DNA of 64,000 nucleotides from Parelaphostrongylus tenuis (taxonomy: Eukaryota > Nematoda > Chromadorea > Rhabditida > Metastrongylidae). Where the stretch lies: contig JAHQIW010007138.1 of the NCBI GenBank assembly GCA_019055375.1, positions 62,001 to 126,000 on the forward strand. Direction: 5' to 3'. This document shows, one piece after another, positions 11,530-63,714 of the stretch (position 1 is its first letter; each line of letters opens with the position of its first letter). Position numbers and translations under genes: made by a program. The notes under the pieces were generated by a model, which was not told where the DNA came from, did not search any database, and saw only the letters and a program-made list of their open reading frames with translations.

Positions 11530-12035
11530 ATACCTTTCGTTTCGAGTGTTTTCTTATGACCACGCTCAAATTCCAATATCCCGGATAATCATTTTTTGAG
11601 CAACGCATGTGGTCTTTTATATAAGGGCTGACTTATAGAGCCCAATACCTTATATGACATTCCTTATTTAACGAGACCACATGCGTGGCCCAAAAATGAT
11701 TATCTGGCATATTGAAATTTGAGCGTCGTCTTAAGAAAACTCTTGAAACGAAAAGTAGGATATATTAACGATACCATCCAAGAGCAATCGAGTGTATAAC
11801 ACTGTTTGTTTACTGATAATTCTGCTGGACTTACAGTGTAAAATGTTCGCCGTCGCCTATTGTTAGTATAGGGGTCTGAGCACTCCGAGAAGATTGGCTA
11901 AAGGCGAAAAGGGTACCTCCCGAATAATCAAACCGTTGAGGTTGAAACACGTGTATCGAGCTCTATAAGTCATCGCTTATATAACAGACCACATGCGTGG
12001 CTCAAAAAATGATTATCTGGCATATTGTTATTCAT
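11530..12035 (+). repeat. H1 hammerhead element, decayed copy
   Basis: The right part (about 11,660-12,030) follows the H1 unit order: the 'gaccacatgcgtgg' palindrome, 'atgattatctggcatattgaaatttgagcg', 'gaaaactcttgaaacg', 'gagcaatcgagtgtataacac', and a hammerhead position at 11,918-11,962. There the catalytic segment expected to be CTGACGA reads ATAATCA, while GAAA, the ACACGTGT stem III and the closing TCGAGC remain. The left part (11,530-11,645) is an inverted partial copy. The ribozyme should be dead. Confidence 0.7.
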
Positions 12036-13925: not shown

Positions 13926-14935
13926 TCAACTTAGAATCCTTTTATTCAACCGCTTTTAGAGGTGATATGATGTTTTTTTGACAATTTCAACACTTTATTG
14001 ATACGCCATCACAGTATTTCTACACTCTGCTGATCCAGTACTTTTATCTTACAAATAGTTCAGTAGTCTCTTTCTTGAACGTCGTAGAATACTGGTTGAG
14101 CGAGCCTCGTTGCAGCTCGAGGATAACCTGGCTGTGGTGTTCCATAGAGCATTGCACGACGCCCTCCCTATCAACGGTGGGCGCCAGATTGTTATAATCG
14201 AGAATCGTGTCTTCCTAGGGCTCATGAATTTTTGGAGTCCCTCAAATGACGCCATCGAGCTGCATCGTCGTCGATAATACAGCGACGGGACTTTGCTCTT
14301 TGAAAATGTCGAATATGGAAGGAAAGTTCAGGGATATGGCAAAAACGGAAGTAAAGCCTGTTTCCCCTACAGCTTTGACAATTGGAGAAACCCTCTCGGT
14401 TTGAACTGCATTCTATTTTTGGTAGATTCGTCTTGTAAGGAAAAGATCTGAGTAGACCACAAACATCATCATGGCGACTTGGGCGAGAACGATGTGGCGA
14501 TTTTTCTTTCGTCCTTGAATGAATAGAATCTCCTTGCAATTATTCTGCTACTCGCTCTCTTTATTTGAAACTTGCATCTCAAAACTCGATGGCTAACTTT
14601 TCGGAGGCAGCGCCTTCGTCAGAGCCTAGACTTATTTATCATATCATATCTGCCTACTCGGTTAATATTTCCAATGCATCAAAAAACATATAGAGGAGAA
14701 ATCTATAGTCTAGTCATTCTGAAAACCCAACTTATTTAGCTTTATGACAGCGATCACTGGTCTCGTGTGACACAATCTGTAAAATGAACCACAATCAGAC
14801 TAGAAGATAAATCTGGGATACGGTGTCATATCACTTGTCGCGCTCAGGCTTTCTTCCCTCCTATTGATTTCTGGTCTTTTGCGGTTTATCCAAAAGCCTC
14901 AAAGGCCCTTCACTCTGATGTTCCTAGTGCTTTCA

Positions 14936-15349
14936 CTACCACATCAATGTCCGTTCCACTTTGTGTGCTCTTAAAGGCTTACTTACTTTGTTGTTGGCTT
15001 TCCAGTCTAAATATTCTTTGGCGCGGAGGCAAAGTGGTCTTCCTGTTTCACCAATGCATTCTCCAGCGCATGTTGTGCACGAGATCAGGTAGATTGTACC
15101 CGAACTCATGCAATGTCCTTCTCTTCCATTAAGGCATACTTTACAATTGCCTGTCTTGCACAAGCTGTAGTACAAGCGGTTTCGAAACAATTGGCGAAGT
15201 AAGTAATAAGGAGGAATTTTCTGTGATTTTGCGGAGCTTTCCAGACCACTGTTTCTTAAACACCTTTTTATAATTGCGCTTATTTCAATCGTTATAAAAG
15301 GTAGTTTCGAAAGTATGTTCCCGTCTAGGTTTGAAACAATATCGTTCTC
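14936..15349 (-). pseudogene. GIY-YIG endonuclease domain of PLE A1
   Basis: This is the best-preserved PLE endonuclease in the window. On the minus strand the order is an upstream zinc-knuckle-like segment (SLCKTGNCKVC), then GTIYLISCTTC and ECIGETGRPL, which correspond to the GIY and YIG motifs, then the conserved Arg and Glu of RAKEYLD. In PLEs this domain nicks target DNA to prime reverse transcription. The frame stays open to about 14,936. The upstream end is cut at 15,349/15,350 where the hammerhead element begins, so the protein cannot continue into the RT. Confidence 0.85.
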
Positions 15350-15762
15350 CGAGGACGAGGAGGCCGAAACCTCCAAAACACCGGTGTATGACCCTGGCGT
15401 ATCAACCTCGTTTGAGCTTAAAGCATTCTTTTTTGGAATTATATTGAATGTTTTTCTCAGGGTTTCAAAAACAGTCGATCTTTTGAATCAGTTTTGATCT
15501 AACAGCAAAAAAATTCATCCACTGAGAGGTGGTGATGGACCAGTGTCTTTGTACACTGTGCCGTCACCACATACGCCTCTCTCCTTGCTTCGGTGCAGGG
15601 CTTAATGTGGGGCGAGGGTCACTGACGAGGAGGCCGAAACCTCCGAATCACCGGTGTATGACCCTGGCGTATAAACCTCGTTCAAGCTCAAAGCATTCTT
15701 TTTTGGAATTATATTATGTGTTTTTCTTGGAATTTCAAAAACAGTCGATCTTTTGAATCAAC
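15350..15762 (+). mobile_element. H4 hammerhead-bearing insertion in PLE A1
   Basis: The PLE sequence breaks after 'atcgttctc' (15,341-15,349) and resumes with 'attgttctc' (15,763-15,771), a 9-bp target-site duplication with one mismatch. PLE copies A2 (near 18,565) and A3 (near 32,010) show the same site uninterrupted. The 413-bp insert is about 1.5 tandem units of 270 bp: positions 15,355-15,500 repeat at 15,625-15,760 ('ccggtgtatgaccctggcgt', then 'ttttttggaattatatt' and 'acagtcgatcttttgaatca'). Each unit starts at a hammerhead motif. It has no coding capacity and was presumably mobilised in trans. Confidence 0.88.
15616..15664 (+). ncRNA. Type I hammerhead ribozyme, family H4
   Basis: In order: stem I strand GGGTCA, catalytic CTGACGA, stem II GGAGG / CCTCC closing a six-base loop, GAA, a short stem III (CA/TG, loop CCGG), then T, A17 and the second stem I strand TGACCC, which pairs perfectly with GGGTCA. 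The one flaw is position 15.1, which is T where A is expected to pair with U16.1. The first repeat (about 15,352-15,394) keeps A at 15.1 but has G12 changed to A and lacks the 5' stem I strand. Predicted cleavage follows A at 15,658. Confidence 0.8.
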
Positions 15763-16769
15763 ATTGTTCTCATTATTATTGTTATGGGCATAACTCTCCT
15801 TATTTACCTAATTTCAATGCTGCTCTTTCGTAGCCATTTGAATTAGCTATCTTTCGCGCCAAACGAAGTAAGACTTCTTTTTCCCCACTCCCTATGCTAA
15901 CACTTGTAGCCGTTTGGTACATGTTTCAAACGAGCGCCCTTACCGTGGGTGATTGGTGATTAGAAAGTTAGTACACTAAAATGTTATTACTATTGGTTTG
16001 CGTTACCATTTTGTTATGTAGCCACTTTCAGAAAGATGGATTTGAACGTTCAAATATGAAAGCCAGTTCTCCCTAGGTTTCTTTCGTGTAAACATAATGT
16101 GCTCTGAGTAGCTGTTCAGAAGATCAAAACATATGCTACCTCCTCCTGTGTTGAGCAGATGATAAGACAATTATCTATGTATCAACACAGGAATAATGGA
16201 CCACGACGGAAAACGAAGCTTCTACTCTGAACATAAAAGATGACGAGGCTTGGAGCCAATCGTTGCCCCATTACCAGCCCTCTAATTTGTGCAAAATGTT
16301 TTCCCTACGACCTAAGACAAAACAACTCAGGCACCTCCTCAAAAGAGTCATGAGTTCTTGAACTGACATGCCATAAGTATATTTTTTCGTTATTTCAACA
16401 AACAATTGGAGGAATAACTGCAAAATCTCCGCCTTTAGCACTCGTTGACAACCGAATTCTCCTAGAGCTTATTAGCTCCTGAATTTGGCACATACCGTGC
16501 TTGTGCTCGTGATTTAAGTTCGAAATGAACTTTTTCGATCGGCACCTACTTGATATGCTGAGAAATTTGTTCGAAAATCAACGGAAAATCGGGTCGACTT
16601 CAATTTTCAGGTTGTTGATGTGTGAAGAGCGATCTTGGGACAGGAGGTGAACGTAATTACACCCTTTGTTGTTCCAAACCTAGTCTTTCTACTTTTGCTT
16701 TATATCGCACTTGGTTTTGGACTTGAAGTATGTTAAATACAATACTGTGCATGAACAGATGGAAAGCTG

Positions 16770-17320
16770 GGAATCCATTCTAACAATGAATGCACATTCT
16801 TCGGAAGACCACACCCCCTAATACAGTGACCCTTGAAGTATTTGCTGCGTGATTTACCTCAGATTCACATCCAGTCTCGTTGAGAATGGGGTATTTCCCA
16901 AGTTCTTGACGCTGAATTACGTTTTAAATAAAGAAAAGGACAGTTTGTGAAAAGTTTTGCATTTTTTCAATCATGCCAATGTTTAGAGATAGTCAGATTT
17001 TTGAGATATTGCAAAACGTACCTACGAGATACATCCAACTTGTAAAAGACGTATCACCTTTGAGCGCTGCACAGTGTATAAATTTATCCCTAATTTCATT
17101 AGGAATAGTAGTTTACTTCCTACCAAAGTTTACAAAACGACTTTTTTCAATTAGTAAAGAGGTGCATATATAAACAATCTCATTGTTCTCGGTTTGGAAA
17201 CTAATCTTTGGAGAAGAACTATAGCTGATTCCATATCTATTTGTAACAATATTCGGTATAAAATTAAGAATAATTTATAAAAGAGATTTGAGAACCTGCT
17301 ATGAGAACATATTTTAACGT
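16770..17320. repeat. Centre of head-to-head PLE pair
   Basis: Sequence between the divergent PLE copies A1 and A2. The block at 16,770-16,960 ('tggaaagctgggaat', 'ctaatacagtgacc', 'aaataaagaaaaggac') recurs at 30,245-30,440, and its reverse complement recurs in part at 17,330-17,490. The middle (about 17,050-17,320) is AT-rich with no recognised gene. Confidence 0.55.
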
Positions 17321-19410
17321 CAAGAATTTGGAGAAACCCCATTCTCAACGAAACTAGAAATGAATTCGAGGTAGATCACGTGCCAAATACTCGAAGGTCA
17401 CTGTATGATATGATCCTTCCGGAGAATGTGCATTCACTGCTAGAATGGATTCCCAGCTTTCCATCTGTTCAGCCCATATCCAAAAAGATAATGCACAGTA
17501 TTGTATTTAATATACTTTGAGTCCAATACCAACTGCGATATTAAGCGAAAGTAGCAAGACTAGGTTTGGAACAACAAAAGGGGTCATTATCACCGCCTCC
17601 TTTCCAAGAACGTTTCACAGACGAAAACAATCTGGCATTGAAGATGACTCGATTTTCCGTTAATTTTCGGACGAAGTCTCAGCATGTAGATACCGATCAA
17701 AAAAAATTTTTTTCGAACTTAACTCACCAGCAAAAAAACGATATGCGCCAAATTAGGGAGCTAATGAACACTAGGAGAATTCGGTTATCAATTAGCGATA
17801 ACGACGAATAATTTGTAGTTATTCCTCGTCAGTTGGATGTTAAAATAACGTATAAACATCTTTAGGATGTGACCCTTTATCGGCCACCTACTGAGGGGGA
17901 TTATAAAGCACAATACCAAAAATTAAACAGGGCGAATTGCTGATAGAAAATGAATTGAGAATAAATAGTATGACATGTCAAAGAGTAATTCATGACTCTT
18001 TTGCAAGAGTGCCTAAATTGTTCTATCTTAGATGATCGGGAAAATATTTTGCACATATTAGAGGGCTGGCAACGAGGCAACGATTGTCACCAAGCCTCGC
18101 CACTGCTTTTATGTCGAAAGTGGAAGCTCCATACTGTCGATACATAGATACTGTCAATACATAAATGTTAGTTCCATCATCTGCCCGACACAGGAAGAAA
18201 TGGACATATGTTTTGATTTCTGGAATATGCATTCACAGTAAGTTAAATTTACACGGGAGAAACTTATAGAAAACTGGCTTCTATTTTTGAACGTTCAAAT
18301 TAGCCTTTTTGAAAGTGGCCACGTAACGAAATCGTATTGCAAACCAAGTAATAAAAACTTTTGATGTACTGACTTTTTTCCAGCAGTTACCCACGAAAAG
18401 AGCGCTTGTTTGAAACATGTACTAAACGGCTAGACGTGTTTGTACGGGAAGTGGGGAGAGAGAAGATTCATTACGTTTGGCACGGAAGATGGCCATTTTA
18501 AATGGCTACGAAAGAGCAGTCACCGTGGTTAGGTAAATAAGGAGAGGTATGCCCCATAGCAACAATAATGAGAACGATATTGTTTCAAACCTATGCGAGA
18601 AGATACTTTTTAACTACCTCTTATAACGAATGTAATAAGCGCAGTTATGAAAAACTGTCTAAGAAACAGTGTACTGAAAAACTCCCAAGTAATCACAATA
18701 ATTCCTCCTAATAACTTGCGTCGCCAATTGATTCGGAACCGCTTGTACGACCGCTTGTGTAAGACTGACAATTGTAAAGTATGCCCTTATGGTAGAGAAG
18801 GAGATTGCACGAGTTCGGGTAGATTATACCTAATCTCGTGCACAACATGCGGTGAAGAATGCAATGGTGAAACAGGAAGAGCACTTTGGATCCGCGCCAA
18901 AGAATGTTTAGATTGAAAAGCCAGCAGCGAAGCAAGTAAGCCTATGAAGGCACACAGAGTGGAAAACATCAGAATGAGGACTTTGATGTGGTAGTGAAAA
19001 TCCTGGGGCAAGCACCAGAAACATCAAAATGAAGGGCTTTGAGGATTTTTGGATAAACCGCAAAAGACCAGAAATCAATAGGAGGAGAGAATGCCTGAGC
19101 GCAACAAGTGATTTGGCACCGTATCCCAGATTCATCTTCTAGTCTGATTGTGGTTCATTTTACAAATTGTATCACACGAGGCCGGTGACCGCTGATCACA
19201 AAGCTAAATAAGGTGGTCTTTCAGAAAGACTAGACTGTAGAATTCTCTTCTATATGACTTTTGATGCGTTCGAAATATTAACCGAGTAATAAGAAATGAT
19301 GTGATATATACGTCTAGGCTCTGACGAAGGCGTGGCCTCCGAAAAGTTAGCCATCTAGTTTTGAGGAAAGAAAGTACCAACCTCGTGCAAATTTCAAATA
19401 AGGGAAAAAA
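17320..19410 (+). mobile_element. Penelope-like element A2 (plus)
   Basis: Order along the plus strand: N-terminal coding block (17,566-17,870), RT motif C region (QRLSPSLATAFMSKVEAP then CRYID near 18,070-18,150), linker, GIY-YIG domain (18,647-18,916), EECL block (about 19,083) and the 3' motif 'CTGACGAAGGC ... GTTAGCC' at 19,319-19,349. Compared with A3 it lacks about 390 bp (A3 31,000-31,375) carrying the RT fingers and motif A. Stops and frame changes are common. It lies head to head with A1 and is followed by a hammerhead-derived element at 19,408. Confidence 0.85.
18647..18916 (+). pseudogene. GIY-YIG domain of PLE A2
   Basis: An 89-codon frame with LCKTDNCKVC, then GRLYLISCTTC and ECNGETGRAL and RAKECLD: the PLE GIY-YIG endonuclease order. 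The YIG motif reads CNG instead of the expected YIG, so activity is unlikely. It stops just after the conserved LD. Confidence 0.8.
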
Positions 19411-19950
19411 CAATTATTTTTCGAATCATGCATGATGCCTGCTATGTGCACTTATACAGCCCACTGCACGTGTTTCTGTACGTAGACATACCGCGCACAA
19501 GTGCCATAAAATCAAAGAATTTACTAGATGGGCAATGAAGTACACTAGAGTGCTCTTGGGTGGTATTTATAAAATATCACTCCTCTACCTAAGGTATTTG
19601 AGCTCCCCCAGGAGGATCGGCTAAGACGAAGAACATTGCTCACCTAACGACGCTGCAAAGACCGAATATTGGGCTGTATAAGTGCCCGTAACATACCACA
19701 TATGGCTCAAGAGATAATTATCAGACATATTGCCTCACCACTATTTTGCCTTTTGTGTTTCAGTTTTCTAATGAAGATATCCTCATCGATTTTGAGGTTT
19801 TTTATTTGTATTGCTAATTCTCGGCTGTGATTGCTCGTGCGAATGTTTTCTCATCGTTTTTTATCTGTAACAGAAACGCATCTATGGTGAATGCTCCTAC
19901 GTCTTGTCACAATTTTTCCATATTGCCGCACGATACGATGATATACCTTT
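19408..19950. repeat. H2 element: inverted, decayed hammerhead repeat
   Basis: Homologous to 33,433-34,170 ('tatttttcgaatcatgcatg' at the start; 'atttgtattgctaattctcgg' and 'gccgcacgat' at the end), with an internal deletion of roughly 100-170 bp. It holds two hammerhead positions in opposite orientation: a minus one near 19,462-19,500 and a plus one near 19,647-19,682 ('cacctaacgacgctgcaaagaccgaat'), both with core mutations. It begins exactly where PLE A2 ends. Confidence 0.6.
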
Positions 19951-20325
19951 ACTTCGAGTGTTTTATTAAGACCACGCTCAAATTTTAAATAGATTTTCAT
20001 TCCAGCCAACATGTCATGTGGTCTGATAAGGGCTCTTGTACAGCTCGATATGATTTAAAGACATAATGTGATAAAAATACCAGCCAAAGAGCAGTCGTAT
20101 CGGATATGTCCACTTGACATACACTGTAAATCGTTCACCTTCGGTACCTATTTGTAGGTAGACCAGGTTCACCGGAGGATTAGCTCATAAGAAGATTGAA
20201 GAACGAAGCGTTTTGCCCGACTAACGAGACTGTAAGGTCGAAGAACGTGCATCGGGCTGTACAAAAATCCTTTACCAGATCACATGACATATTGGCTCAA
20301 ATAATAATGAGAGGATATGAAAATA
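19950..20325 (+). repeat. H1 hammerhead element, decayed copy
   Basis: Follows the H1 unit order, with an inverted partial block on the left (19,955-20,050). The hammerhead site at 20,215-20,257 keeps stem I (GCCCGA / TCGGGC), stem II GACT-GTAA-GGTC and GAA, but the catalytic CTGACGA reads CTAACGA and stem III is altered, so cleavage is not expected. Confidence 0.7.
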
Positions 20326-22840: not shown

Positions 22841-23780
22841 GTAAACAGCTGGGTTCATCACGCTCGCTTCGTAGAACGGGAATCCTTTTTCTACTTAAAT
22901 TTCAAAAAGCCATGTACTTGAGTCACCAAGATTTGATTCATGTTCAGGATTTCTGAATGTTAGCCGAAATGGAACGATGTCGCTAACATGAAATATATAT
23001 GTAACAATCAAACAGGATATAAAAGATTTTTTTACTCGCATGATCGACTATCAATTAATCTCTGCATTGAATGAATAATTCCTTGGTTTTCTTTTTCAAC
23101 AGATATGAGGTTGTCAATTTGACGATTTATTCGGTACAGATGAACAGTCGCTTTGGCTTCGTTGCCTTCTTCAGAACCTGAAAGAGTCGAATTGATATGC
23201 AGCACTCTAAGACAAGCACTATCATAACCAGAGCAGAACTGCTTACACACCTTTTTCTTTTATGGTTGCTTTCATGCGTTCTTTCTGATTTATCAAACTC
23301 CTATATAAGTCAAGAGAGTATGACTTATTACACCATAGTGGAGACCACACTACGATCCATACTACTAAGCCAAATGGGGTAGCAACAGTAACAACGCTAT
23401 TGAAAATGCTCTGTCATATCAAGTGATGGATAAAGAAAAAATGCGCTCTACACAAATGAAAAATTCTACCAAATCAAACAATGAAGCATTATGTACTTTA
23501 AAAGAGGATAAAAGAAAGAGAAAAGTAAAAGCAACAGAAAGGCAAAAGTGTGGATACGGTAGCGCAAAAATGAAACTATAGCCCACTTGAATACAGAACT
23601 GAAATCTCAGTAAAGTAGAGAGATGGCAAAAATAGGCACCTGCTAGAAACCTTGTGTTCTTAAACGGACGATTTCAGTTGTTAGAAAGGTTGTTTCCAGC
23701 TTACACACTAGTAATCGAGGAACATGACTAAGTTCTAATAGAAATAACAAGCTTCAAGAAATTCGAGCGTAGCCATGAGA
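22841..23780 (+). repeat. Repeat D, copy 1 (uninterrupted)
   Basis: Matches 34,591-34,675 plus 35,075-35,950 over its whole length at high identity ('gtaaacagctgggttcatcacgct' at the start, 'cttgagtcaccaagatttg', 'caatcaaacaggatataaa', 'gacttatta...accatagtggagaccacactacgatcca'). On the minus strand, 23,150-23,190 holds a 'CTGAAGAAGGC' word like PLE 3' ends, so D may be a PLE-derived 3' region. It provides the empty site for the 399-bp insertion in copy 2. Confidence 0.7.
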
Positions 23781-26483: not shown

Positions 26484-29400
26484 CTCCACGGACCTGCCTC
26501 TCTGAGAGATCCTGCCCGGTTAGCCGCTGCCGGCGCGTGGCGTGTCCCCAGGTGGTGGATAGGTGAGTAGACGCGAAGCAAAAGCGATCGTGTGCTTCTC
26601 AGAGAAGCAGTTGGATTAAGGGGACGACCCCCCTGCTTCTGCAGAGCCGATTTGACTAAACTCTATTTCTTCGAGTCAAGTCGGCCAAAAGCCTGCAATC
26701 AAGGGGATGGGAAGTACATGGGAGGTGGTCGGGAGTCGCATTCAACAAACAAGCTCCACCCGCTCCTCCGAGAGAGTCTGGAAAGCTATTCGTAAGTATC
26801 CAGCTCCCAAATTAAAAGCCTAGCGAGCTCTACGATGGTTATAAAGTGCTAAAAACAGTAACAAATACAGGCCTTATTCCTCTGACCTTGAAATAGCCCC
26901 TGGGACGACAGCGCCAGGTAGGGCGAGTGCGGAGAGGCTGCTAAAATTTTAGGGTCAAACTAGGCTGCCAAGATTGAAACGAACTGAAATGACTATCTGC
27001 ACTTATGATTCAATAACTTTTCGTCATGAATTCACTTTGGAAAATCTATTGATTTACGCAAGAAGGATAAGAAGCTATGTCATTGGCCTGGCTGAGACGA
27101 GAAGGCGCCATCCTTTTCACGCTTTTTATGACACCGGAAAAGCACTGTTCTTTGGAATATGCGATAGCAGAGGTATCAGCAGCGTTGGCGTTTTCGTCAA
27201 ATCTAATTTGACAGTGAACATAGATTGGATTGATTAACTAACAACCCATATCGGACGGTTACGGTTGAACCAATGTGATTCAATGCCGGCTTTGACCATC
27301 TTCGTTGCCTACGAACCAACATCAAGCTATGACGAAGACGAAGTCGAAGCGTTCGCTGTAAACCTTGCAAAATTCTTCAGAGAAGATCATACATTCTTCA
27401 ACGTCATTGTCGGAGAATTTAATGCAAAAATTGGACCTAGAAGAACGTCTCAAAAACGTCACATTGGAACCCACGGGCTAAAGTGAAACGAACAAGGTAA
27501 GAGGCTATCTGATTCATCATGACGACCCAAACCATTCATGGTAACTCACAATTCCAAAAGCCTCACTCTCAGCGATGGACGTGGGAGCTTCCCAATGGCG
27601 AGTACAATATTGAAATAGACAACATCTTAGTATATCGAAGGTTTTGCCTGACCGATGTCGCTGTTGTTCCTAAGTACAACACGGGATCAATCCATCGCCA
27701 CCTTCGCGCAACGTTCCCTTTTTAAGGAGAGGAGAGAAAGCTGCTAAATTCGAACAAGGAAATCCCAGAAGTACTGTAACTGGGATGTATTCAAGTCATT
27801 AGTCCGCTCTCTGAAACTACCGTTGCTGACAACATCGACCAAGAATGCGATCGACTTGTTAAACATCCTCACGTTAGCGCTATGAAAGCCGAGAGTTCTA
27901 AGGTTACAAAGAGACGCTTGTCCACGCAGACACCCGAGCTCATACGTCAACGTGGAATCGCACGAGCTACAGGCAACCGAAACCTAACGTGCGATCTTGC
28001 GAAACACTGCAGAAAAGCGATAAGAAAAGACCTTATAAAGAAACGAGCAGCAGTTATGAAAAGCAGCAGAAGCTGGGAAAACATTCGCAAAGCCCAGCGA
28101 GGCCTCGCCAATTATAAGACCAAGATGACTGCACTCCGATGCCCTGACGGGACACTTACAGCATTCAGAAGGGCTTAGGAGAACATCATCCACCAATACT
28201 ACTCGGATCTCTTCTCTAGACATGTCCTCTTCGTCATAGAAATCGAAAGAGGAGGAATATGTCGTTTCACCGGTCCTCCGTTCCGAGATCCGGCATGCTG
28301 TATCGCCGATGAAGAACAGAAAAACACCCCGATTCCGACAGGATTAGACCAGTTCACCTGAAGACCTTGTCTTTAGTTCTCATCAACACCTTGGCTCGCC
28401 TCTTCACCCGCTGCCTCTCAGAATGTAAGGTCCCCATTTTGTGAAAAACGAGCAAGACCATACTGTCGTTCAAAAAGGGAGACCTTTTCGACATAGGCAA
28501 TTATCGTTCAGTCCGCTTGCTGTCCAATATCTATATACTCTTTACTCGAGTCATCCTAAACAGGATTAACAAAACACTGGACGAAGGACAGTCATGCGCT
28601 CAAGCAAGCTTCCGAAAAGGATGGAGTACAGTAGACCACATCCACACGATTACAAGACTCGTTGAAGTTTTACGTGAGTGCAAACAACCACTCTGTTTCT
28701 CTTTCATCTATCTGACAAAAGCCTTCGGTTCACTGGAAACAGAAGCAGTTATAGAGGTTTTGGATAACCAGGGCGTCCCTACTAGGTACATAATGATCCT
28801 TCGTGAGCTTTATAAAGATTTCACAACCAAAATATCTTAATTCTACAACAAATTTACCTCGACGTAAGGAGAGTAGTTCAAAAAGGCAGTGCAATTTCGC
28901 CGAAACTATTCACTACCATTCTACAAAACGTCATAAGAACATTGGAATGGGACGATATGAGATTGAAAATTGACGGTCGACAATTAATCCATTTTCGCTT
29001 TGCTGACGATATCGCATAATACCAAACATCAGCCAAGCAGAACGAACGTTGACCGATTTCGATAACGCCTGTGGAAGGATAGGTCTCCAAGTAAATCTAA
29101 CGAAAACGATGTTCATGAGAAACGGATGGGTTTTGAATGCCCCATTCACGCTCAACGGAACGACAATGTTCAGTTATGTCTATATTGATCGTGAAATCAA
29201 CATGGTGAACGATCTAGCTCCAGAGTTGAGCAGGATGAAACAAGTGGCTTGGGTAACGTTTAGGAGCTTTGAGGGTTTAGTGAAGATGACAAAGAACATC
29301 CGACTTCGTGATTTGACTCGACGATTATCCTTGCCCTAACGTATGCAGCAGAAACTTGGTCGCTACGTAAGAAGAATTGACGATCACTTGGCGTTATTGA

Positions 29401-29820
29401 AAGCGCAGTCGAAAGGTCGCTGGTAGGAGTATCCCTATCTCGCCAATGAGAGAAGATCCTAAGTTCCGACATAGGTCATCGATCAAAAATCAAAGACGCC
29501 CTTCTTTACCGCAGGATGTCGAAAATAAGGTGTGCCGGACATGTGATGCGCTCCAACGACAACCGATGGACGAGAGCCGTTACCGGCTGGATTCGTCGGG
29601 ACATCAAGCGCTCTATAGGAAGACCACCGACCCATTGGTCCGATTTCATCGCGAAAGCTATAGAAGAAAGATTTGATACTCAGCAAATCCCTAGAGCAAG
29701 AAGGACCCTCTGGGCTGCTCTTGCACGCGATAGGGAAAAATGGAAGTGTTGTTGGTACCTGCTCGAGTCACTCGACGATCAACGGGACGACAGATGATAC
29801 AGGTGTTTTATATTCCTCCT
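26484..29820 (+). mobile_element. RTE-clade non-LTR retrotransposon, near full length
   Basis: A GC-rich 5' untranslated region (26,484-26,970) contrasts sharply with the AT-rich surroundings. It is followed by one long decayed ORF with an endonuclease then a reverse transcriptase, and a C-terminal segment with KIRCAGHVMR and NRWTRAV, the order and wording of RTE LINEs of the kind I associate with strongylid nematodes. It is inserted in a tRNA-like repeat on the left and abuts a minus-strand PLE on the right. The total of about 3.3 kb fits a near-complete RTE. Confidence 0.88.
26974..29797 (+). pseudogene. RTE endonuclease-reverse transcriptase, broken ORF
   Basis: Endonuclease (26,974-27,725): the catalytic Asn motif reads TYDS instead of TYNA, LAETR keeps the Glu, the Asp of VxGDFNA is Glu (VGEFNAKIG), and the final SDH reads SIH. 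RT (about 28,480-29,020): AQASFRKGWSTVDHI is recognisable; motif A reads FIYLTKAFGSLE where an Asp pair is expected; motif C FADD is intact at 28,999-29,010 but a stop follows at 29,015-29,017. The C-terminus (29,516-29,797) has GHVMR and GRPPTHWSDF. There are at least six stops or frame changes. It once copied LINE RNA by target-primed reverse transcription; it is now dead. Confidence 0.88.
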
Positions 29821-29822
29821 CA

Positions 29823-30560
29823 GTGGATGGTCGACAAAGGGTAACATCCTAAAGATGTTCTTCCGTTATTTCAACATCCATTTGACTAAAAATAACTAAA
29901 AATTCTCCGCCCTTATCACAAATTGCTAACCGAATTTCCTAGTGTTTATTAGCTCATATTTTGGCATATACCATGTTTTTGCTCGTGAGTTAGGTTCAAA
30001 ATGAACTTTTTCGATTGACACCTATTTAGTATGCGGAGAACTTCTTCCAGAAGTCAACGGAAAATCGAGTCGACTTCAGTTTTAGGTTGTTGTTGCCTGA
30101 AGAACGTTCTTAGAAAAGGAAGTGGTGGCAATGACCTCCTTTGTTGTTCCGAACCTAGTCTTTCTACTTTTGCATTATATCGCAGTTGGTCTTGGACTTA
30201 AAGTATGTTAAATACACTACTATGCATTGCTGTTATGGGTATGGGCAGAACAAGTGGAAAGCTGGGAATCAATTTTAACGGTGAATGCACATTCTCCGGA
30301 AGGATCATACCCCCTAATACAGTGACCCTCAAAGTATTTGATGCGCGATCTACCTCAGACTCACTTCTAATCTCGTTGAAAATGGGGGTTGTCCGAATTG
30401 TTGACGTTGAATTATGTTCCAAATAAAGAACAGAACAGTTCGTGAGAAGTTTTGCACTTCTTTAATGACGCCAATGCTTAGAGATAGTCAGACATTTGAG
30501 ATATAACAAAACGTACCAACGAGATGCATCTGACTTATAAAAGACATAATATCTTCGAGG
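29823..30560 (-). mobile_element. Penelope-like element A3', 5' part (minus)
   Basis: The reverse complement of 29,830-30,220 matches the N-terminal coding block of A2 (17,520-17,880), and the flank 30,245-30,440 matches 16,770-16,960. It holds no RT core or endonuclease. It forms a head-to-head pair with the plus copy A3 beginning near 30,600. Its left edge lies against the RTE 3' end. Confidence 0.75.
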
Positions 30561-30881
30561 CAAAAGATGATCTCATTACGGTAAAAAAGTCACCTTTGTC
30601 GTCGCTGAACCGTGCATAAAATTATCCCTAATTTCATTAGCAATATGAATTTACACACAGCATGCGGCTTACCAGAGAATTCGCGCCAAGAAGCTGAAGT
30701 TGACACGATTTTCCGTTGATTTTCGGACAAAGTTCTCCGCATACTAGATAGACACCGATTGAAAAAATCATTTCGAACATAACTGACGAGCAAAAACACG
30801 GTATGCTCTAAATTCGGGAGCTAATAAGCAGTAGGAGAATTCGGTTATCAATTAGTGACAAAGGCGGAGAATTTTTAGCGA

Positions 30882-31807
30882 TTGCTCTGCAATTGGACAT
30901 TAAAATTACGGAAAAACATCTTCATAATTTTAACCTTTTTCTGGCCATCCACTGGAGAGAAATATAAAGCACAATATCGAAAATTAAGCAGAGAATGGGT
31001 CAAAACGGCAAGGGCAGCTGGTGTACAACAATCTATAGTCCGTCAACTTAAGAGCGATTTGCCAACTTGTCCCGTCCTACGCATTATCAAAACACATAAG
31101 CTCACCTTTAATAGTGATCCAGAGTTTACCGATCCTTTATCATTCAGAGCTAGGCCGATTATTAGCAGTGTAGTTGGACCGACGGATAGAATAACATGGT
31201 TTTCGAGCCTCATTTCATCGCTCTTATTGGAATACATGCCAGTCTACCTAGCACCGAAATTTTCCTAGAACGCATAAATCGTACACGGCCAAATCACACT
31301 TATGTAGTGGAATCGTTCGATGTTACTGCTCTTTACACGAACTCGTAGAATGACACTCAACTAAAAGCAATTCACGAATTGCTGGTAGAAAATGAATCGA
31401 GAATAAATAGTATGACATGTCAAAGAGTAACTCATGACTCTTTTGCGATAGTGCCTAAATTGTTCTATCTTTAGATGATCGGGAAAATATTTTGCACATA
31501 TTAGAGGGCTGGCAATGAGGCAACGATTGGCACCAAGCCTCGCCACTGCTTTTATGTCGAAAGTGGAAGCTCCATACTGTCGATACATTGATACTGTCAA
31601 TACATGAATGTTAGTTCCATCATCTGCCCGACACAGGAAAAAGTGGACATATGTTTTGATTTCTTGATTAGGCAGTCACAGCACGTTAAACATACACGGG
31701 AGAAACTTACTGAAAACTGGCTTCTATTTTTGAACGTTCAAACTAGCCTTTTTGAAAGTGGCCACGTAACGAAATCTTATTGCAAACCAAGTAATAAAAA
31801 CTTTTAA
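30882..31807 (+). pseudogene. PLE reverse transcriptase, broken
   Basis: The first frame (to 31,268) shows VLRIIKTHKL and RARPIISSVVGPTDR, typical PLE RT fingers. After a frame change, motif A reads SFDVTALYTN with its catalytic Asp codon at 31,319-31,321, then a stop at 31,346. QRLAPSLATAFMSKVEAP and YCRYID follow; the second Asp of the YIDD box is Thr (YIDT, 31,584-31,595). The thumb frame (31,604-31,807) has TREKLTENWLLFLNVQ and CKPSNKN. The enzyme primed DNA synthesis from nicked target DNA; several stops and frameshifts make this copy inactive. Confidence 0.87.
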
Positions 31808-31992
31808 TGTACTGACTTTTTTCCCATCAGTTGCCCTCGGAAAGGGCGCTCATATGAAACATGTACTAAACGGCTAGAAGTGTTTGCACGGGGAGTGGGA
31901 AGAGAGAAGAGTCATTACGTTTGGCACGGAAGATGGCCATTTCAAATGGCTACGAAAGAGCAGCCACTGAAGTTAGGTAAATAGGGAGAGGT

Positions 31993-32540
31993 ATGCATCA
32001 TAGCAATAATAATGAGAACGATATTGTTTCAAAGCTATGTGGGAAGATACTTTTGAAACTACCTCTTATAACAAATGCAACAAGCGCAGTTATAAAAAGG
32101 TGTCTAAGAAACAGTGTTCTGGAAAACTCCCTAATGATCACAATAATTCCTCCTAATAACTTCCGTCGCCAATTGGATCGGAACCGCTTGTACGACCGCT
32201 TGTGTAAGACTGACAATTAGTATGTCCTAATGGTATTGAAGGAGACTGCATGAGTTACAATATGTCTAATCTCCTGCACAACATGCGTTGAGGAATGCAT
32301 TGGTGAGAAAGGAAGACCACTTTGGATCCTCATCAAAGAATATTTAGATTGGAAATCCAACAGCAAAACAAGTAAGCCATTGGGGGCGCCTACAGAGCGG
32401 AAACGTCACGACGGGGACTTTTATAGGGAAAATCCTGGGGCAAGATACAGAAATATCAGCGGGAAGAACTCTCGAGGCTTTTTGGATGGACCGCAAAAGA
32501 CCAGAAATGAATAGGAGGTTAGAATGCCTGATCATAACAA
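31993..32540 (+). pseudogene. GIY-YIG region of PLE A3
   Basis: The 75-codon frame at 31,993-32,220 gives RRQLDRNRLYDRLCKTDN, the segment before the GIY-YIG domain, and ends at a stop at the place where A2 continues KVC. The GIY-YIG part is decayed: 'gtctaatctcctgcacaac' and 'ggtgagaaaggaagaccac' preserve the ISCTTC and GE.GRP words at 32,260-32,320 with frameshifts. Not functional. Confidence 0.75.
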
Positions 32541-32856
32541 GTGATATGGCGCCTCATCTCAAATTTATCTTCTAATCTGGCTGTGGCTCTTTTTACAAAA
32601 TGTGTCACTCTAGAAAGGTGACCGCTCTCATAGAACTATGTAGGGTGGAGCTCTGCAGAATGACTAGAGTGTAGATTTTTCCATATGATTTTTTGATGCA
32701 TTCGAAGTATTAACCGTGTGATTAGATATGGTGTGGTATATACATCTACGCTCTGGCGATGGCGCTGCCGTCGAACCGTTAGCCATCGGATTTTGAGGAA
32801 AAGGAAGTAGCAACCTCGTGCTAGTTTTAAATAAAGAAAAGGACAATTTATCAACG

Positions 32857-33121
32857 AGGGCTGACTTATAGAGCCCGATACACGTGTTTCAATCTTGCGA
32901 TCTCGTCAGTCGGGCAGTTACCCTTTCTCGTGTTTTGCTAATCTCTGTGGGAGCTCCAGTCCCCACACTAAGAGTTAGCGACGACGAAGTTGTACACTCT
33001 ATGTCCAGTGAAATTTTCACCGAACATAGGGTGTTGTACACTCGATTGCTCTTGGCTGGTATATTCAATATATCATGTCTTTCGTTTCGAGTGTTTTCTT
33101 GAGATCACTGCTTAGATTTTC
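32857..33121 (-). mobile_element. H1 hammerhead element, copy b
   Basis: Minus-strand H1 unit directly downstream of PLE A3. Order on the minus strand: 'gaaaacactcgaaacgaaag', 'gaatataccagccaagagca', 'atcgagtgtacaacaccct', 'ggggactggagctcccac', 'gattagcaaaacacgag', then the hammerhead at 32,915-32,873. It forms an inverted pair with copy a. Non-coding. Confidence 0.8.
32873..32915 (-). ncRNA. Type I hammerhead ribozyme, H1 copy b
   Basis: Minus strand, 43 nt: stem I GCCCGA, catalytic CTGACGA, stem II GATC with GCAA tetraloop and GATT (one G-U pair), GAAA, stem III AC/GT around ACGT, A17, and stem I TCGGGC, which pairs perfectly with GCCCGA. All conserved core bases are present. The predicted cleavage triplet is GUA, cutting after position 32,879. 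Confidence 0.88.
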
Positions 33122-33432
33122 AAATAATGATTATCAGGCATGTTGAAATATCGAGTGTACAACACCCTGTGTTCGTGAAAATTTCACTGGACATGGAGTG
33201 TGAAAGGTTCGTCGTCGCGAACTCTTAGGTGGGGACTGGAGCTTCCACAGAGATTAGCAAAAGACGAGAAAGGGTAACTGCCCGACTGACGAGATCGCAA
33301 GATCGAAACAAGTGTATCGGGCTCTATAAGTCAGCCGTCACTGGTAGACCACTGACATGCGTGGCTCAAATAATGATTATCAGGCATATTGAAATTTGAG
33401 CAGTGGCCTTGAGAAAACACTTGAAACGAAAA
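33122..33432 (+). mobile_element. H1 hammerhead element, copy a
   Basis: Plus-strand H1 unit, inverted relative to copy b and joined to it at a short palindromic junction ('aataatgattatcaggcat' with about 60 bases of the unit skipped). It continues past its hammerhead into 'gaccactgacatgcgtgg' and 'gaaatttgagc'. Non-coding. Confidence 0.78.
33280..33322 (+). ncRNA. Type I hammerhead ribozyme, H1 copy a
   Basis: GCCCGA, CTGACGA, GATC-GCAA-GATC (perfect stem II with a GNRA tetraloop), GAAA, CAAGTGT stem III (AC/GT pairs, loop AAGT), A17 at 33,316, then TCGGGC pairing with GCCCGA. All core bases are canonical; the stem III loop differs by one base from the other copies. Confidence 0.88.
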
Positions 33433-34175
33433 GGAATTGTTATTTTTCGAATCATGCATGAAGCCTGCTAAGGGCACTTATACAGCCCAGTGCACGTGTT
33501 TCGTTCTTATCGGCCCCCTCAGTAGGGCAGCGTCTCTCGTCTTGACCAGTTCTGTCGAGGGGGACCTAACTCCCTTGCATGGAGAAGACGCAGACATACT
33601 ACGTACAAGTGTCATAAAGTGAAAGAATTTACTAGATGGGCGATGTAATAAACTAGAGTGCTCTTTGTTGGTATTTATGATATATCATATCATTCCCTTT
33701 ATTGTTTTCTTAGAACCACGCTCAAATTTCGACAGGCCTCACAATTTTCTTAAAGCACACATTTCCTTTGCTTGATGGCACGTGTAAATTATGCGTCTGC
33801 GTCGCCTCTTTCTATAGTATTTGAGCTTCCCCGAGAGGATCGGCTAAGACGAAGGACATTGCCCAACTGACGACGCTGCAAAGGCCGAATATTGGGCTGT
33901 ATAAGTGCCCGTAACAGACCACATGTGTGGTTCAAAAGATAATTATCAGGCATATTGACTCTCCACTATTTAGTCTTTTGTGTTTCAGTTATCTAATGAA
34001 GTCATTCTTATCGATTTAAAGGTTTTTTTATTTGTACTGATGATTCTCGGTTGTGATTGCTCATAAATGTTTTCTCATCGTTTTGTATCTCTAACAGAAA
34101 CGCATCATGGTGAGTGCTCCTGCGACTAGACACAATTTTTCCACATTGCCGCACGATGCGATAATATACCTTTAT
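33433..34175. repeat. H2 element with inverted hammerhead remnants
   Basis: Full-length relative of 19,408-19,950. Two hammerhead positions face opposite ways: minus 33,485-33,528 (CTGACGA changed to CTGAGGG, GAAA and ACACGTG kept) and plus 33,861-33,896 (GCCCAA / TTGGGC stem I and CTGACGA kept, but stem III deleted so that GAA runs straight into TATTGGGC). Both are predicted inactive. The right end (33,960-34,170) is unique sequence shared only with 19,730-19,950. Confidence 0.65.
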
Positions 34176-34237
34176 GCATTCCAATCATTTTTGAGCCACG
34201 CGTGCCAGTGGTCTGTCAAATAGGGCTGACTTATAGA

Positions 34238-34280
34238 GCCCGATACACGTGTTTCGATCTTGCGATCTCGTCAGTCGGGC
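34238..34280 (-). ncRNA. Type I hammerhead ribozyme, H1 copy c
   Basis: Canonical in every position: GCCCGA / TCGGGC stem I (6 bp), CTGACGA, GATC-GCAA-GATC stem II, GAAA, stem III AC/GT closing ACGT, A17. Predicted cut after position 34,244 on the minus strand. This is the cleanest ribozyme in the window. Confidence 0.9.
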
Positions 34281-34550
34281 AGTTACCCTTTCTCGTCTTT
34301 TGCTAATCTCTGTGGGTGCTCCAGTCCCCACGCTGAGAGTTAGCAACGACAAACGTATTACACTCTATGTCCAGTGAAAAACTCATCAAACACAAAGTGT
34401 TGTACATTCGATTTCTTGTGGCTAGTATATTCAATATATCATAATATTCGTTTCCAGTGTTTTCTTAAGACCACAGCTCAAAATTCAATATGCCTTGCAA
34501 TCGTTTTTGAGCCACGCAAGTCAGTAGTCTGTCAAACAGGCTGACTTATA

Positions 34551-34590
34551 GCCCGATGCACGTGCTTCGATCTTGCGATCTCGTCAGTCG
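34551..34590 (-). ncRNA. Hammerhead ribozyme, H1 copy d (altered)
   Basis: Core CTGACGA and stem II GATC-GCAA-GATC are intact and stem I is cut to four pairs by the element boundary. The 15.1-16.1 pair is G-C instead of A-U (GAAGC ... GCA), a compensatory change that keeps stem III but replaces the required U16.1, so cleavage should be weak or absent. Confidence 0.75.
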
Positions 34591-34709
34591 GTAAACAGCT
34601 GGGTTCATCACGCTCTCTTCGTGAGAACGGGAATAATTTTTTTTTTTGGTTAATTCTCAAAAATCATGTACTTGATAACTAAGAGAATTGAGTGGTGGAC
34701 AAAAACACG

Positions 34710-34781
34710 GCCTCAGGCGGAAATCGAACCCACGTTTCATCCTATCCGGGGACGTGTGCTCTACCACTACACCACCGAGGC
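34710..34781 (-). ncRNA. tRNA-like sequence (left arm)
   Basis: 72 nt that fold as a cloverleaf on the minus strand: acceptor GCCTCGG / CTGAGGC, D arm, anticodon stem CGTCC / GGATG, T arm with GTTCGAT. The anticodon loop reads CCGGATA (nominal GGA), but position 33 is C, where real tRNAs have U. I therefore call it tRNA-like, probably a SINE head, rather than a tRNA gene. Confidence 0.6.
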
Positions 34782-34917
34782 ACATTTGCCCGATCACTCA
34801 TTCTTCAACATCTCAACTGGGTTTATAAAGCAAAATAGCATACCCGACCAACCTGTCAAAGGTTGGTGGCTGATAGCTAACACTGAGATGTTGAAGAATG
34901 AGTGATCGGGCAAATGT

Positions 34918-34989
34918 GCCTCGGTGGTGTAGTGGTAGAGCACGCGTCCCCGGATAGGATGAAACGTGGGTTCGATTCCCGCCTGAGGC
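34918..34989 (+). ncRNA. tRNA-like sequence (right arm)
   Basis: Mirror copy of 34,710-34,781 with three substitutions or fewer. The same cloverleaf, CCGGATA loop and near-perfect Pol III box B (GGTTCGATTCC) are present, so internal transcription is plausible even though decoding is not. Confidence 0.6.
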
Positions 34990-35999
34990 CGTGTTTTTTG
35001 TCCACCACTCAATTCTCTTAGTTATATAAGTAATATAATAACACTGCGGAAAAAACAGTGAAAATACTATAATTTCATGTACTTGAGTCACCAAGATTTG
35101 ATTCATGTTCAGGACTTCTGAATGTTATCCGAAATAGGAATATGACGCTAGCATGAAATATTTATGTAACAATCAAACAGGATATAAATGGTTTTATCAA
35201 CTCGCATGACCGACTAACAAATAATCTTTGCATTGATTGAATAGTTCCTTCATTTTCTTTCATTCAACAAGTACGAGGTTGTTAATTTGACGATTTATTC
35301 AGTACAGATGAATAGTCGTTTCGGGTTTGTCGCCTTCTTCAGAGCCTGTAGGAGTCGAATTGATATGAAACACACTCACACAAGCACTTTCATAACCAGA
35401 GCAAAACAGCTTACACACCTTTTATTGTTTTATGGTTGCTTTCATGAGTTCTTTCTGATTTATTAAACTCCTATATAAGTCAAGAGAGTATGACTTATCA
35501 CGCCATAGTGGAGACCACACTACGATCCACACTACCAAGCCAAATGGAGTAGCAACACTAACAACGCTACTGGAAATGCTCTGTCATATCAAGTGATGGA
35601 TAAAGAAAATATGCGCTCTACACCAATGAAAAATTCTAACTAATCAAACAATGAGGCATCATGATCTCTAAAGGAGGACAAAAGAAAGAGAACAGTAAGA
35701 AGCATCAGAAAGGCAAAGTGTAGATACGGTAACGCAGAAAAAACTGTAGCCCACTCTTGAGATACAAAACTGAAATCTCAATCAAGTAAAGAGATGGTAA
35801 AAACAGACATCCGCTAGAAACCATGTATGCGTAAACGGACGATTTTAGTTGTTGGGATGAGTTGTTTCCACCTATACACTGGTAATCGAGGATCATGACA
35901 AAGTTCACTGAAAGAATAACAAGCCTCAATTCTTGTATGCGTTAGAGATATGGCGAATAATCCAAGCATAACATACATTTGCACCACAGTACACGGATG

Positions 36000-37224: not shown

Positions 37225-37600
37225 AACTTACAAGTAGATCTGTTGGCTCATGTTGACTCAAATAACAATGGAGAGATCTATTGAAATTCGAGCGTGGTCT
37301 TATGGAAACACTCGAAATAAAGGCATAAGATTACTAAAATACCAGTCAACGTTCAATCGAATATAAAACACTGTAAGTTTGGTGATCTTTTCACTTGACA
37401 TACAGTGTAAACCGTTCGTCATCGATAACTCTCTCTAGGGAGAGCAGGCTCCCGAGAGGACTGGCTAATGAATTGAAAGACGACGAGTTCCGCCCGACTG
37501 ACGAGACTGCAAGATAGAAACACGTGTATCGGGCTGCACAGGAGCCTTACCAGATCATACGACATGTTGGCTCAAATAACAATGAAGAGATCTAGCATGT
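37225..37600 (+). mobile_element. H1 hammerhead element, copy g
   Basis: One full H1 unit plus flanks: 'tcgagcgtggtcttatggaaacactcgaaa', 'ataccagtcaacg', 'cacttgacatacagtgtaaac', hammerhead at 37,492-37,534 and the trailing 'accagatcatacgacatg' block. Similar flanking words ('caaataacaatggagagatct' and 'caaataacaatgaagagatct') occur on both sides, at 37,259 and 37,563, so the copy exceeds one unit. Confidence 0.75.
37492..37534 (+). ncRNA. Hammerhead ribozyme, H1 copy g
   Basis: Stem I GCCCGA / TCGGGC is perfect, CTGACGA and GAAA are intact, and stem III ACACGTGT and A17 are canonical. Stem II (GACT-GCAA-GATA) has lost its closing pair next to the core, compared with GACT-GTAA-GGTC in the 20,215 copy. 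It may be weakened but is not obviously dead. Confidence 0.75.
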
Positions 37601-50030: not shown

Positions 50031-50128
50031 ATGTTTACAAAAAATGTATAATGGGACAATATCAAAGCAGTGCACTTTCAATTACTTCTGATTATACCCA
50101 ATATGTGGAATACTGTGCAAAAACGTTC

Positions 50129-50199
50129 GCGTCAGCCGGGATTCGAACCCAGATCTCACTCTTTCCGGGAGCGTATGCTAACCGTAGCACTACCGACGC
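50129..50199 (-). ncRNA. tRNA-like sequence, left
   Basis: 71 nt: acceptor GCGTCGG / CTGACGC (one G-U), anticodon stem CGCTC / GAGTG, loop CCGGAAA (nominal GGA, C at position 33), perfect box B GGTTCGAATCC. Probably a Pol III SINE head rather than a decoding tRNA. Confidence 0.6.
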
Positions 50200-50496
50200 T
50201 CGTTTTGCACAGCACTCTTATTTACGCTATAACGCGTTGTCTGCCAACAGCCAACCGTCGACGGTGTGGCGGGGCAGCCGTTATCGGCACTAAACCCACT
50301 TGAGTTGACAGACATTGGATATCGAAAATCAGTCATAATTCTTTCTATTTTGACTGCCACTTGCAGTGGTATGATGCTATTAGTATACCCAATATTTGGA
50401 GTACTGTGCAAAAACGTTTGCCCCGCCAGACCGTCGATGGTTGGCTGTTGGCAGAGAACGCGTTATAGCGTAAATAAGAGTGATGTGCAAGAACGA

Positions 50497-50567
50497 GCGT
50501 CGGTAGTGCAATGATTAACATACGCTCCCGGAAAGAGTGAGATCTGGGTTCGAATCCCGGCTGACGT
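50497..50567 (+). ncRNA. tRNA-like sequence, right
   Basis: Inverted partner of 50,129-50,199 with the same CCGGAAA loop and box B; the D-arm region differs at several bases. Confidence 0.6.
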
Positions 50568-51599
50568 GAACGTTTTTGCACAGTACTCCACATATTGGCT
50601 ATAAGTATAACATCATACCACTGCAAGTGGCAGTCAAAATAGAAAGAATTTAGACTACTTCTGATTAGTAAACTTGGTGTTTATTGCTCTCAGGCCAAAA
50701 CTTATAAAATGGACTCAATAGTATTAGATTTCACACTCAATTTGTTTTGTTTACTCTGCTCGGGCTTGTGATTCAGTCTCGTGTATTGTTGATGATCATT
50801 CGATAATTTGAATCTCGAAATATTCATACTAAAATAGGTTTTTAAAAGACAGGCTGTTAGAGCAAAAATAAGATTGTTTTTTGTACTAGGAGTAGTTAGC
50901 CTGTTTCTTGAACATTTTAGCTAGTTTATTTGGTAATGTAAAACAAAAAAAAAGTTTGTACGTATACAATGAAAGAACAAAGTCTCCTCTAGAATTTTAA
51001 TGCAGCAAAACTAGAAAATTTTTCGAGACAGAGAAAAAATACCCAAGCAAATAATGGAATTCGCGCTCTTTTCGACTGACTCGTGCGTAGAAAAATCAAT
51101 TGCTTTCGGCAGTGTGCATTATTTGAGAGTGCGATTTTTATTAGTTATATAGAATTTTTTTCTCTACATCGGAAGAATTTTGATTTTTTTTCAATAGAAA
51201 TGTAGAGACGTTTTTGTATCGTTCTAAAGGTGCAAACATTTTTTTTTGTTTCACATTTCCAAGTGAAATAGGTATGAAGTTCAAGCGACGAGCTAAATAC
51301 TTCGTGTGCGAAGCCTGTTCTCCTTTTCGCCATCGCGGTGCTATGCAGACCTTCTCAAAAATGTTTTTAACATCAATATTGTCGAGATTCGGACTGTTAA
51401 ATGCCTACTGAAATCTCAGCGAGAAGCCACAAACACACACCAGCCGAGCAAGCAAAGCAAACTGAGTGTGAAACATTATACTATTCTCGATTTTACAACA
51501 CAGAAAAAATATTTCGTCCCAAAAGGGTCAAATCGCTTTTGTAGCAGTGATATATTATTACAACCAAATATCTACCTTTGTTAAATAATCAAAATTTCG

Positions 51600-63050: not shown

Positions 63051-63054
63051 TCAT

Positions 63055-63500
63055 TAGGTCTGGTAGGGCACATATAAAGTGCCAGACATGTGTTTCAATC
63101 TTTCAGCTTCATCAGTAGCACGGTGCCCTTCGTTCGAATCAAACCCTTATAAGGGGATAAACCTCCTGTGTATAAAGATTAACGACGATCATATTACATC
63201 GCAAATGTCTCAAGTGACAAGATCACTCGACATTGCAGTGATTAACAGTCGGTTGCCCATGGCTAGTAAATTTGGTAATACCTTTATATAAATATACCAG
63301 CCGTGAGCAGTCAGGTTGTTAATTATTGCAATGTCGGGTGATCTTGCCACTTGACACATTTGCATTGTAACAAACTCGTAGATTCCTGTGTATATACGGA
63401 GTAATCCCCTTACAAAGGCTGGGCTCTAACGAAAAGCACTGCACTAATGATGAGACTGAAAGGTCAAAACACATGTCTTGCACCATATTAGTACAATAGC
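63055..63500. mobile_element. H3 hammerhead element, inverted pair
   Basis: Left half 63,055-63,270 and right half 63,290-63,500 are inverted copies ('ggataaacctcctgtgtata' with 'tcctgtgtatatacggagtaat', 'caagtgacaagatcactcgacattgca' with 'gcaatgtcgggtgatcttgcc'). Each half has a hammerhead position near its outer end. Sequence differs from H1 and H4 except in the ribozyme. Confidence 0.7.
63079..63121 (-). ncRNA. Type I hammerhead ribozyme, family H3
   Basis: Minus strand, 43 nt: GTGCTA stem I, CTGATGA, stem II AGCT-GAAA-GATT (weak, one mismatch), GAAA, stem III AC/GT around ACAT, C17 and TGGCAC, which pairs with GTGCTA (one G-U). The cleavage triplet is GUC, the commonest natural one. The partner at about 63,441-63,485 (plus) has C3 and G12 changed to A and looks dead. 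Confidence 0.75.
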
Positions 63501-63714
63501 ACACCTGATATAATCTTTATATATGTTATCAGACTGCATGAATATACAATTTTTCCTTCATTTCTGAATACTCCAAAATCTAACCAGGAAATTCTTATAT
63601 ATGCAGCACTTAGGCGTGCTTGCCTAAGGTTTTTTGACAGTATTGATGTTATGCTTGAGAACAAATATTCTATCAATGATAAATGATTTAGCACCTTACT
63701 GTGGTTTGATTGCG

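Follow-up and report, generated by a model that had tools for sequence, protein, structure and literature searches.

The hammerhead motifs found in a 64,000-nucleotide stretch of a Parelaphostrongylus tenuis contig (hereafter, the window) belong to a family of units, H1, that are probably retrozyme-like, non-coding retroelements of about 317 nt with type I hammerheads, moved through two-ended target-primed reverse transcription of the Penelope type. The sampled H1 elements are mostly outward-facing inverted pairs, many of them with direct repeats of 9-14 bp and often with one short and one long 3' end, and this footprint is also seen in the sampled GIY-YIG Penelope-like elements of the same genome. 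It is by the footprint that the two are linked, no sequence similarity having been established between the 3' ends of H1 and those of the Penelope-like elements.

Three motifs of the window (A, B and C; Table 1) had been described in an earlier note as canonical type I hammerheads, and their positions, strands and all conserved bases were found exactly as given there. Each has the core CTGACGA...GAA, a stem II of 4 bp with a GCAA loop, A17, a stem I of GCCCGA/TCGGGC, and a stem III of 2 bp (A-U, C-G) with a loop of 4 nt; that is, the CUGANGA...GAA core, the three helices and the H17 cleavage site of the type I hammerhead are all present. The stem I helix is there as claimed, but its continuation had been overlooked: the 3' strand bulges out by six nucleotides, and past this bulge comes an outer helix. 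We also applied a strict descriptor that demanded the full core, at least 3 bp in stem II and 2 bp in stem III, at least five of six stem I pairs and an H17 other than G. It returned just A, B and C from both strands of the 64 kb and nothing from 60 windows simulated with a first-order Markov model, as expected from the earlier statement that the match is beyond chance, and we thus reject a chance origin of the three motifs.

The earlier note also held that the absence of a covariance-model score above threshold at these places would count against the motifs, and, taken literally, this is what the Rfam model RF00163 gave: A, B and C score 23.0-27.7 bits, all below the gathering threshold of 34 bits, at which none of the three was reported from the whole window. 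Specifically, motif C reached 27.7 bits (E 7e-4) in a scan of 3501 bases, with ends agreeing with 34238-34280, while A and B were not listed in that scan and reached 23.0 bits (E 6e-4) and 23.2 bits (E 5e-4) just when 81 and 86 bases, respectively, were scanned. A closer H1 relative elsewhere in the genome (L078:7726-7768) passes the Rfam cut-off with 34.8 bits and scores 70.4 bits in a covariance model that we built from six window copies. This model revealed 12 clear motifs in the window, the six outside its training having E values of 6e-15 to 1.2e-5. The cluster of three reported earlier is real in every member, but nine more copies, most of them with core changes, mispaired helices or a missing part, and the inverted-pair insertions had escaped notice. 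Folding energies of A, B and C were no better than those of shuffled sequences (z -0.27, -0.18 and -0.38), and the best fold contains stems I and II for the motifs at 34238 and 33280, not for that at 32873.

Base-pair covariation was assessed in eight diverged motifs, picked for gap-free alignment (six from the window and one each from loci L078 and L043; the decayed window copies D, E, F, 63R, P11R and the copy at 19632 were left out, and one of the eight, P19R, has an altered core base). In this set, 11 of 18 base pairs have changed on both sides and 91% of the 144 cells are paired, whereas none of 500 shuffles reached 11 two-sided pairs and sliding the partner strand gave at most two. Assignment to the type I hammerheads with a 2-bp stem III is therefore backed by the geometry, the sub-threshold RF00163 scores, the above-threshold relative and the covariation, and the conclusion that the three window motifs are type I hammerhead ribozymes, predicted from their sequence to be self-cleaving, is supported.

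Table 1. Hammerheads, H1 units, Penelope-like copies and tRNA-bearing elements of the window (position 1 is its first letter).
Feature	Position	Strand	Remarks
Hammerhead A	32861..32921	-	minimal motif 32873-32915, span with outer stem I helix; descriptor, Rfam, covariance model
Hammerhead B	33274..33334	+	minimal motif 33280-33322; descriptor, Rfam, covariance model
Hammerhead C	34226..34286	-	minimal motif 34238-34280; descriptor, Rfam, covariance model
Hammerhead F	34541..34598	-	5' side of stem I lost at insertion junction; G15.1-C16.1 replaces A-U
Decayed hammerhead in D/E paralogue	19632..19686	+	covariance model
H1 pair A/B, head-to-head (outward-facing)	32849..33439		possible 8-bp end repeat GAAAAGGA at 32836 and 33428
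H1 direct tandem F to C	34173..34591	-	313 nt between cut sites; reference unit U
Older inverted pair D/E	33440..33958		hammerheads 33473-33534 (-) and 33855-33909 (+, helix III lost)
Inverted pair P11	11528..12027		exact 14-bp end repeat ATATTGTTATTCAT at 11518 and 12022; decayed hammerhead 11913-11973 (+)
Inverted pair P19	19952..20320		hammerhead 20209-20269 (+), G5 to A; no end repeat of at least 7 bp found
Single unit K	37249..37594	+	32-bp terminal direct repeat (37249-37280, 37563-37594); hammerhead 37486-37546 (+)
Inverted pair, diverged family	63053..63509		hammerheads 63067-63127 (-) and 63435-63495 (+, C3 and G12 changed); no end repeat found
Penelope-like copy P17, head-to-head arms	14578..19415		arms 14578-17064 (-) and 17305-19415 (+); broken frames
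P17 GIY-YIG fragments	14939-15487, 18614-18913	-, +	
Penelope-like copy P29, head-to-head arms	29803..32848		arms 29803-30559 (-) and 30603-32848 (+); broken frames
tRNA-Ser inverted pair	34664..35086		tail of about 50 nt on right; exact 12-bp end repeats TCATGTACTTGA at 34664 and 35075
tRNA-Ser inverted pair	50083..50667		tail of about 50 nt on right; exact 12-bp end repeats TACTTCTGATTA at 50083 and 50656

The motifs are carried in non-coding units of 313-317 nt (Table 1). The A/B pair is missing at the paralogous site 19414/19415, and pieces homologous to D/E follow the paralogous Penelope copy on its 3' side, within 19414-19951. We searched the genome (481,506,261 bases in 5105 contigs) at the DNA level with window positions 33250-33420 as the query and obtained 47 matches from the best 40 of 1430 first-look candidates; the 39 places outside the window that were fetched represent 37 distinct loci, since L029, L031 and L032 are one locus. 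Among the 68 hammerhead-like matches in the 39 places, a number that counts one locus more than once and contains a few chance hits, 30 retain all strict features. Neighbouring arms (at least 82% identity, at least 45 nt, a gap of at most 60 bp) face outward (-/+) in 30 of 32 cases over the 37 loci, with two ++ cases, both of them split arms (L022 and L025), and no +- case; without the identity and length filter the counts are 33 of 36, two and one, respectively. No such neighbouring pair is present at 8 of the 37 loci. Direct repetition also occurs, as dimers only, in the window tandem and in arms of L033, L041 and L045.

End repeats of at least 9 bp flank the elements at 15 of 38 loci (L032 excluded and L031 retained for this count), compared to 0.6% of 1406 cross-pairings, and were not found at the other 23. 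The 3' ends of the arms fall largely into two classes, the long one reaching about 45 nt beyond the short one: the 30 outward pairs comprise 19 long/short, one long/long and 10 with another end. Given that the query included the long end, selection partly accounts for the long arm at each locus, but not for the rarity of a second one. At 12 of 15 loci inspected letter by letter (14 with repeats of at least 9 bp plus L026 with 8 bp; L046 excluded), one arm has the short end, near GATTATCAGGCAT, and the other the long end, near CGAAACGAAAGA, the exceptions being L036, where the long end comes about 15 nt early, and L030 and L042, with a long end and a shorter-than-usual short end. Folds at the H1 3' ends were no better than those of shuffles, and we claim no hairpin there. 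Arms of the same locus are 91.9% identical, compared to 91.1% with arms of other loci, and were each other's top match in only 2 of 24 comparisons, a few of which join arms that are not direct neighbours.

The predicted cut site is crossed by 63 of the 72 H1 arms, so that integrated copies mostly would derive from templates that were uncut or re-ligated (circular) there. Two window arms that start within 3 nt of the cut (p 0.03) had made a cut-site footprint a candidate, which the larger sample did not uphold: 2 of the 72 arms have their 5' end at the cut site against 1.8 expected, i.e., no enrichment. In the wider interval from -3 to 31 there are 13 such ends against 7.9 expected (p 0.05).

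Turning to the Penelope-like elements, four relatives were identified for an endonuclease fragment of the window, and PF01541 is listed for three of these. Most of the Penelope reverse transcriptase (RT) pieces were not recognised by Pfam, and we take them to be RT based on motifs recognised by eye and on the endonuclease relatives with PF01541. A genome search with the endonuclease, in which the best 150 of 14007 first-look candidates were scored, showed open frames of up to 884 codons. Neighbouring endonuclease domains at most 6 kb apart are arranged -/+ in 17 of 18 pairs and ++ in one (47 rows from contigs with more than one match, three far-apart rows of contig C2306 being left out); of the 17, two on contig C3034 look duplicated and one is the window's own. 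Among 12 fetched Penelope loci, eight were judged to show both outer ends, and in seven of these head-to-head copies the end repeats measure 10-19 bp, compared to a maximum of 9 bp in 42 cross-pairs; the eighth (L082) has a 9-bp repeat only, equal to that maximum. By eye, one arm runs to a late end and the other stops early in all eight, the early stops being scattered, and the arms of four young pairs are 98.6-99.8% identical. The Penelope frame is followed on its 3' side by a mini-hammerhead with GAAACGUC, which in L080 is also present 5' of the frame. The earlier pointer to Penelope-like elements and animal retrozymes was right, with the refinement that the hammerhead of the autonomous Penelope-like family seen in this genome is another one, poor in helix III, whereas H1 has the 2-bp stem and tetraloop that are described as resembling the hammerheads of invertebrate retrozymes (PMC7229834).

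A partly comparable arrangement is found in the tRNA-bearing elements, which form two outward-facing inverted pairs in the window (34675-35074 and 50092-50655), each with one tailed arm. A third pair (L080:1090-1380) has its tail, by eye, on the left, and an end repeat of 8 bp was not found for it. In a genome search whose query included the tail and in which the best 40 of 2952 candidates were scored, neighbours at most 500 bp apart (33 retyped rows) were -/+ in 14 cases and ++ in four. Three of the 14 lie on identical-looking contigs (C2769, C1835 and C1638) and are truncated by the contig start; the other 11 comprise seven long/short and four long/long pairs, and the latter make the likeness to H1 partial. 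Contig C2047 carries three tandem copies of the tRNA element 291-294 bp apart. One Penelope clade might bear tRNAs. We tentatively suggest, with less than even confidence, that one Penelope-like machinery is responsible for moving three or more unrelated kinds of RNA (its own mini-hammerhead pseudo-LTRs, H1 retrozymes and tRNA elements) by one two-ended reaction with short and long starts, and that the tRNA, standing at the ribozyme's place, may replace it as the RNA-processing signal.

Other hammerheads and repeats were also encountered. RF00163 passed its cut-off in at least 20 places of the genome (74 of 119811 candidates scored; best 45.8 bits) and in none of 14 control genomes. Four passing places at three loci (L090-L092) were inspected and represent another hammerhead family with a longer stem III; at L090:116-376 two passing hammerheads form an outward inverted pair with arms 95.7% identical over 93 bp. 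A further hammerhead-like family, with the sequence GGTCA CTGACGA GGAGG...CCTCC GAA ACACCGGTGT A TGACC, occurs at L083:4583-5680 (-), L088:4512-4856 (+) and L078:6101 (-); its cores in L083 are 263-264 bp apart, with one gap twice that, and form a tandem retrozyme-like array. Within the window, repeats of about 850 bp at 35076-35929 and 22911-23757 are 87% identical, the former with a mini-hammerhead-like core CTGAAGAAGGC...CCCGAAACGAC at 35313-35342 (-), and a decayed non-LTR retrotransposon, presumably RTE-like, lies at 26953-29794 (+) with an RVT_1 match at 28445-28837 (E 7e-8). The SL1 leader, a mark of nematodes, has 102 exact copies in the genome (none for the reversed control), and an SL1 tandem array spans G000:C3131:236-24504 with a spacing of mostly 568 bp.

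Animal retrozymes, as described in PMC7229834, are non-coding units of 170-400 nt with a type I hammerhead that has a 2-bp helix III and a tetraloop, and H1 resembles them in these features as well as in its direct tandems, TSDs of more than 4 bp and co-existing Penelope-like elements; that is, H1 has the non-coding unit (313-317 nt) with a type I hammerhead and the direct tandem, the latter as dimers only. The sampled H1 elements differ in being mostly outward inverted pairs, one arm of which often has a tail; the terms inverted, head-to and orientation are absent from the main text of PMC7229834. The pseudo-LTRs of Penelope elements, in turn, are described as inverted, with TSDs of 8-10 bp and an optional tail on one of them (PMC3846280), and H1 shares with those of Penelope/Poseidon the inverted pair, the optional tail on one arm, a TSD of about 8-10 bp (end repeats at 15 of 38 loci) and a hammerhead. 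H1 differs in that its hammerhead has a looped helix III, unlike the mini-hammerhead of the autonomous family in this genome, and in that the unit is without a reading frame, 313-317 nt being too short for an RT and GIY-YIG frame; such frames are found in the separate Penelope copies. Type I hammerheads also occur in short repeats of newt, Schistosoma and cave crickets according to a review (PMC6155905), and H1 is alike in this respect; however, the fetched H1 copies are dispersed pairs or dimers, as opposed to long tandem satellites. In the open-access literature, which leaves most subscription work outside (including studies of Penelope hammerheads), we found no nematode retrozymes, the sole co-mention concerning human ribozymes, no text joining hammerhead, head-to-head and Penelope, and none with a SINE mobilized by Penelope.

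In the mechanism that we consider probable for H1, a Penelope-like protein would make staggered cuts in the two strands of the target. Each 3' end freed in this way would prime the copying of H1 RNA into cDNA, starting at either of two internal sites, and the resulting cDNAs would be joined head to head; the hammerhead would serve to process multimeric or read-through H1 RNA. The footprint common to H1 and the Penelope-like elements suits priming at both ends of the cut target. It has been reported that a Penelope-like protein cleaves both strands, extends them and can initiate internally, and that hammerhead cleavage is unnecessary for insertion in vitro (PMC11167929); the arms that cross the cut site and the unenriched 5' ends at it are in line with the cleavage-independent insertion described there.

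Alternatively, H1 units could be solo pseudo-LTRs belonging to an autonomous Penelope-like family that is absent from our sample, as opposed to a separate non-autonomous element. The H1 anatomy (inverted pair, optional tail, short end repeat) does match that of pseudo-LTR pairs, and D/E units or homologous pieces lie directly 3' of both window Penelope copies, but the pseudo-LTR of the young autonomous family is a different one, with the mini-hammerhead, and H1 repeats head to tail with itself; we therefore regard this origin as unlikely, though deserving serious consideration. It is also rather unlikely, in our view, that the inverted pairs arise through self-priming (fold-back) of a single template instead of two-ended priming. 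While fold-back has been proposed for bdelloid Penelope elements (PMC3846280) and would agree with the nearly identical arms of the four young Penelope pairs, the two arms of a pair often differ in their 3' end points and have 5' starts unrelated in position, which argues against it.

As for the hammerheads themselves, they might be inactive passengers kept merely through the copying of the elements, a view with which the sub-threshold Rfam scores, the many damaged copies and the absence of a cut-site footprint in the 5' ends would be compatible; the two-sided pair changes, which occur in all four helices across the diverged copies, make it distinctly improbable. Inverted repeats with flanking direct repeats are likewise what MITE-like DNA transposons with terminal inverted repeats would show, but the variable length of the end repeats, the unequal and variable 5' extent of the arms, the two alternative outer ends and the direct tandem copies render this explanation highly improbable. 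A phage or viral origin was rejected, as the region has no phage match and the three hammerhead patterns are absent from viral contigs; among 30 pattern matches to the Penelope endonuclease in the viral contigs, none was confirmed as a relative.

Penelope-like elements have been put forward as a strong candidate for the mobilisation of animal retrozymes, based on shared hammerheads, tandem copies and co-occurrence (PMC7229834). With H1 and Penelope-like elements sharing an insertion footprint in one genome, and with recent Penelope copies present in it, the idea that Penelope-type machinery mobilises retrozymes becomes directly testable.
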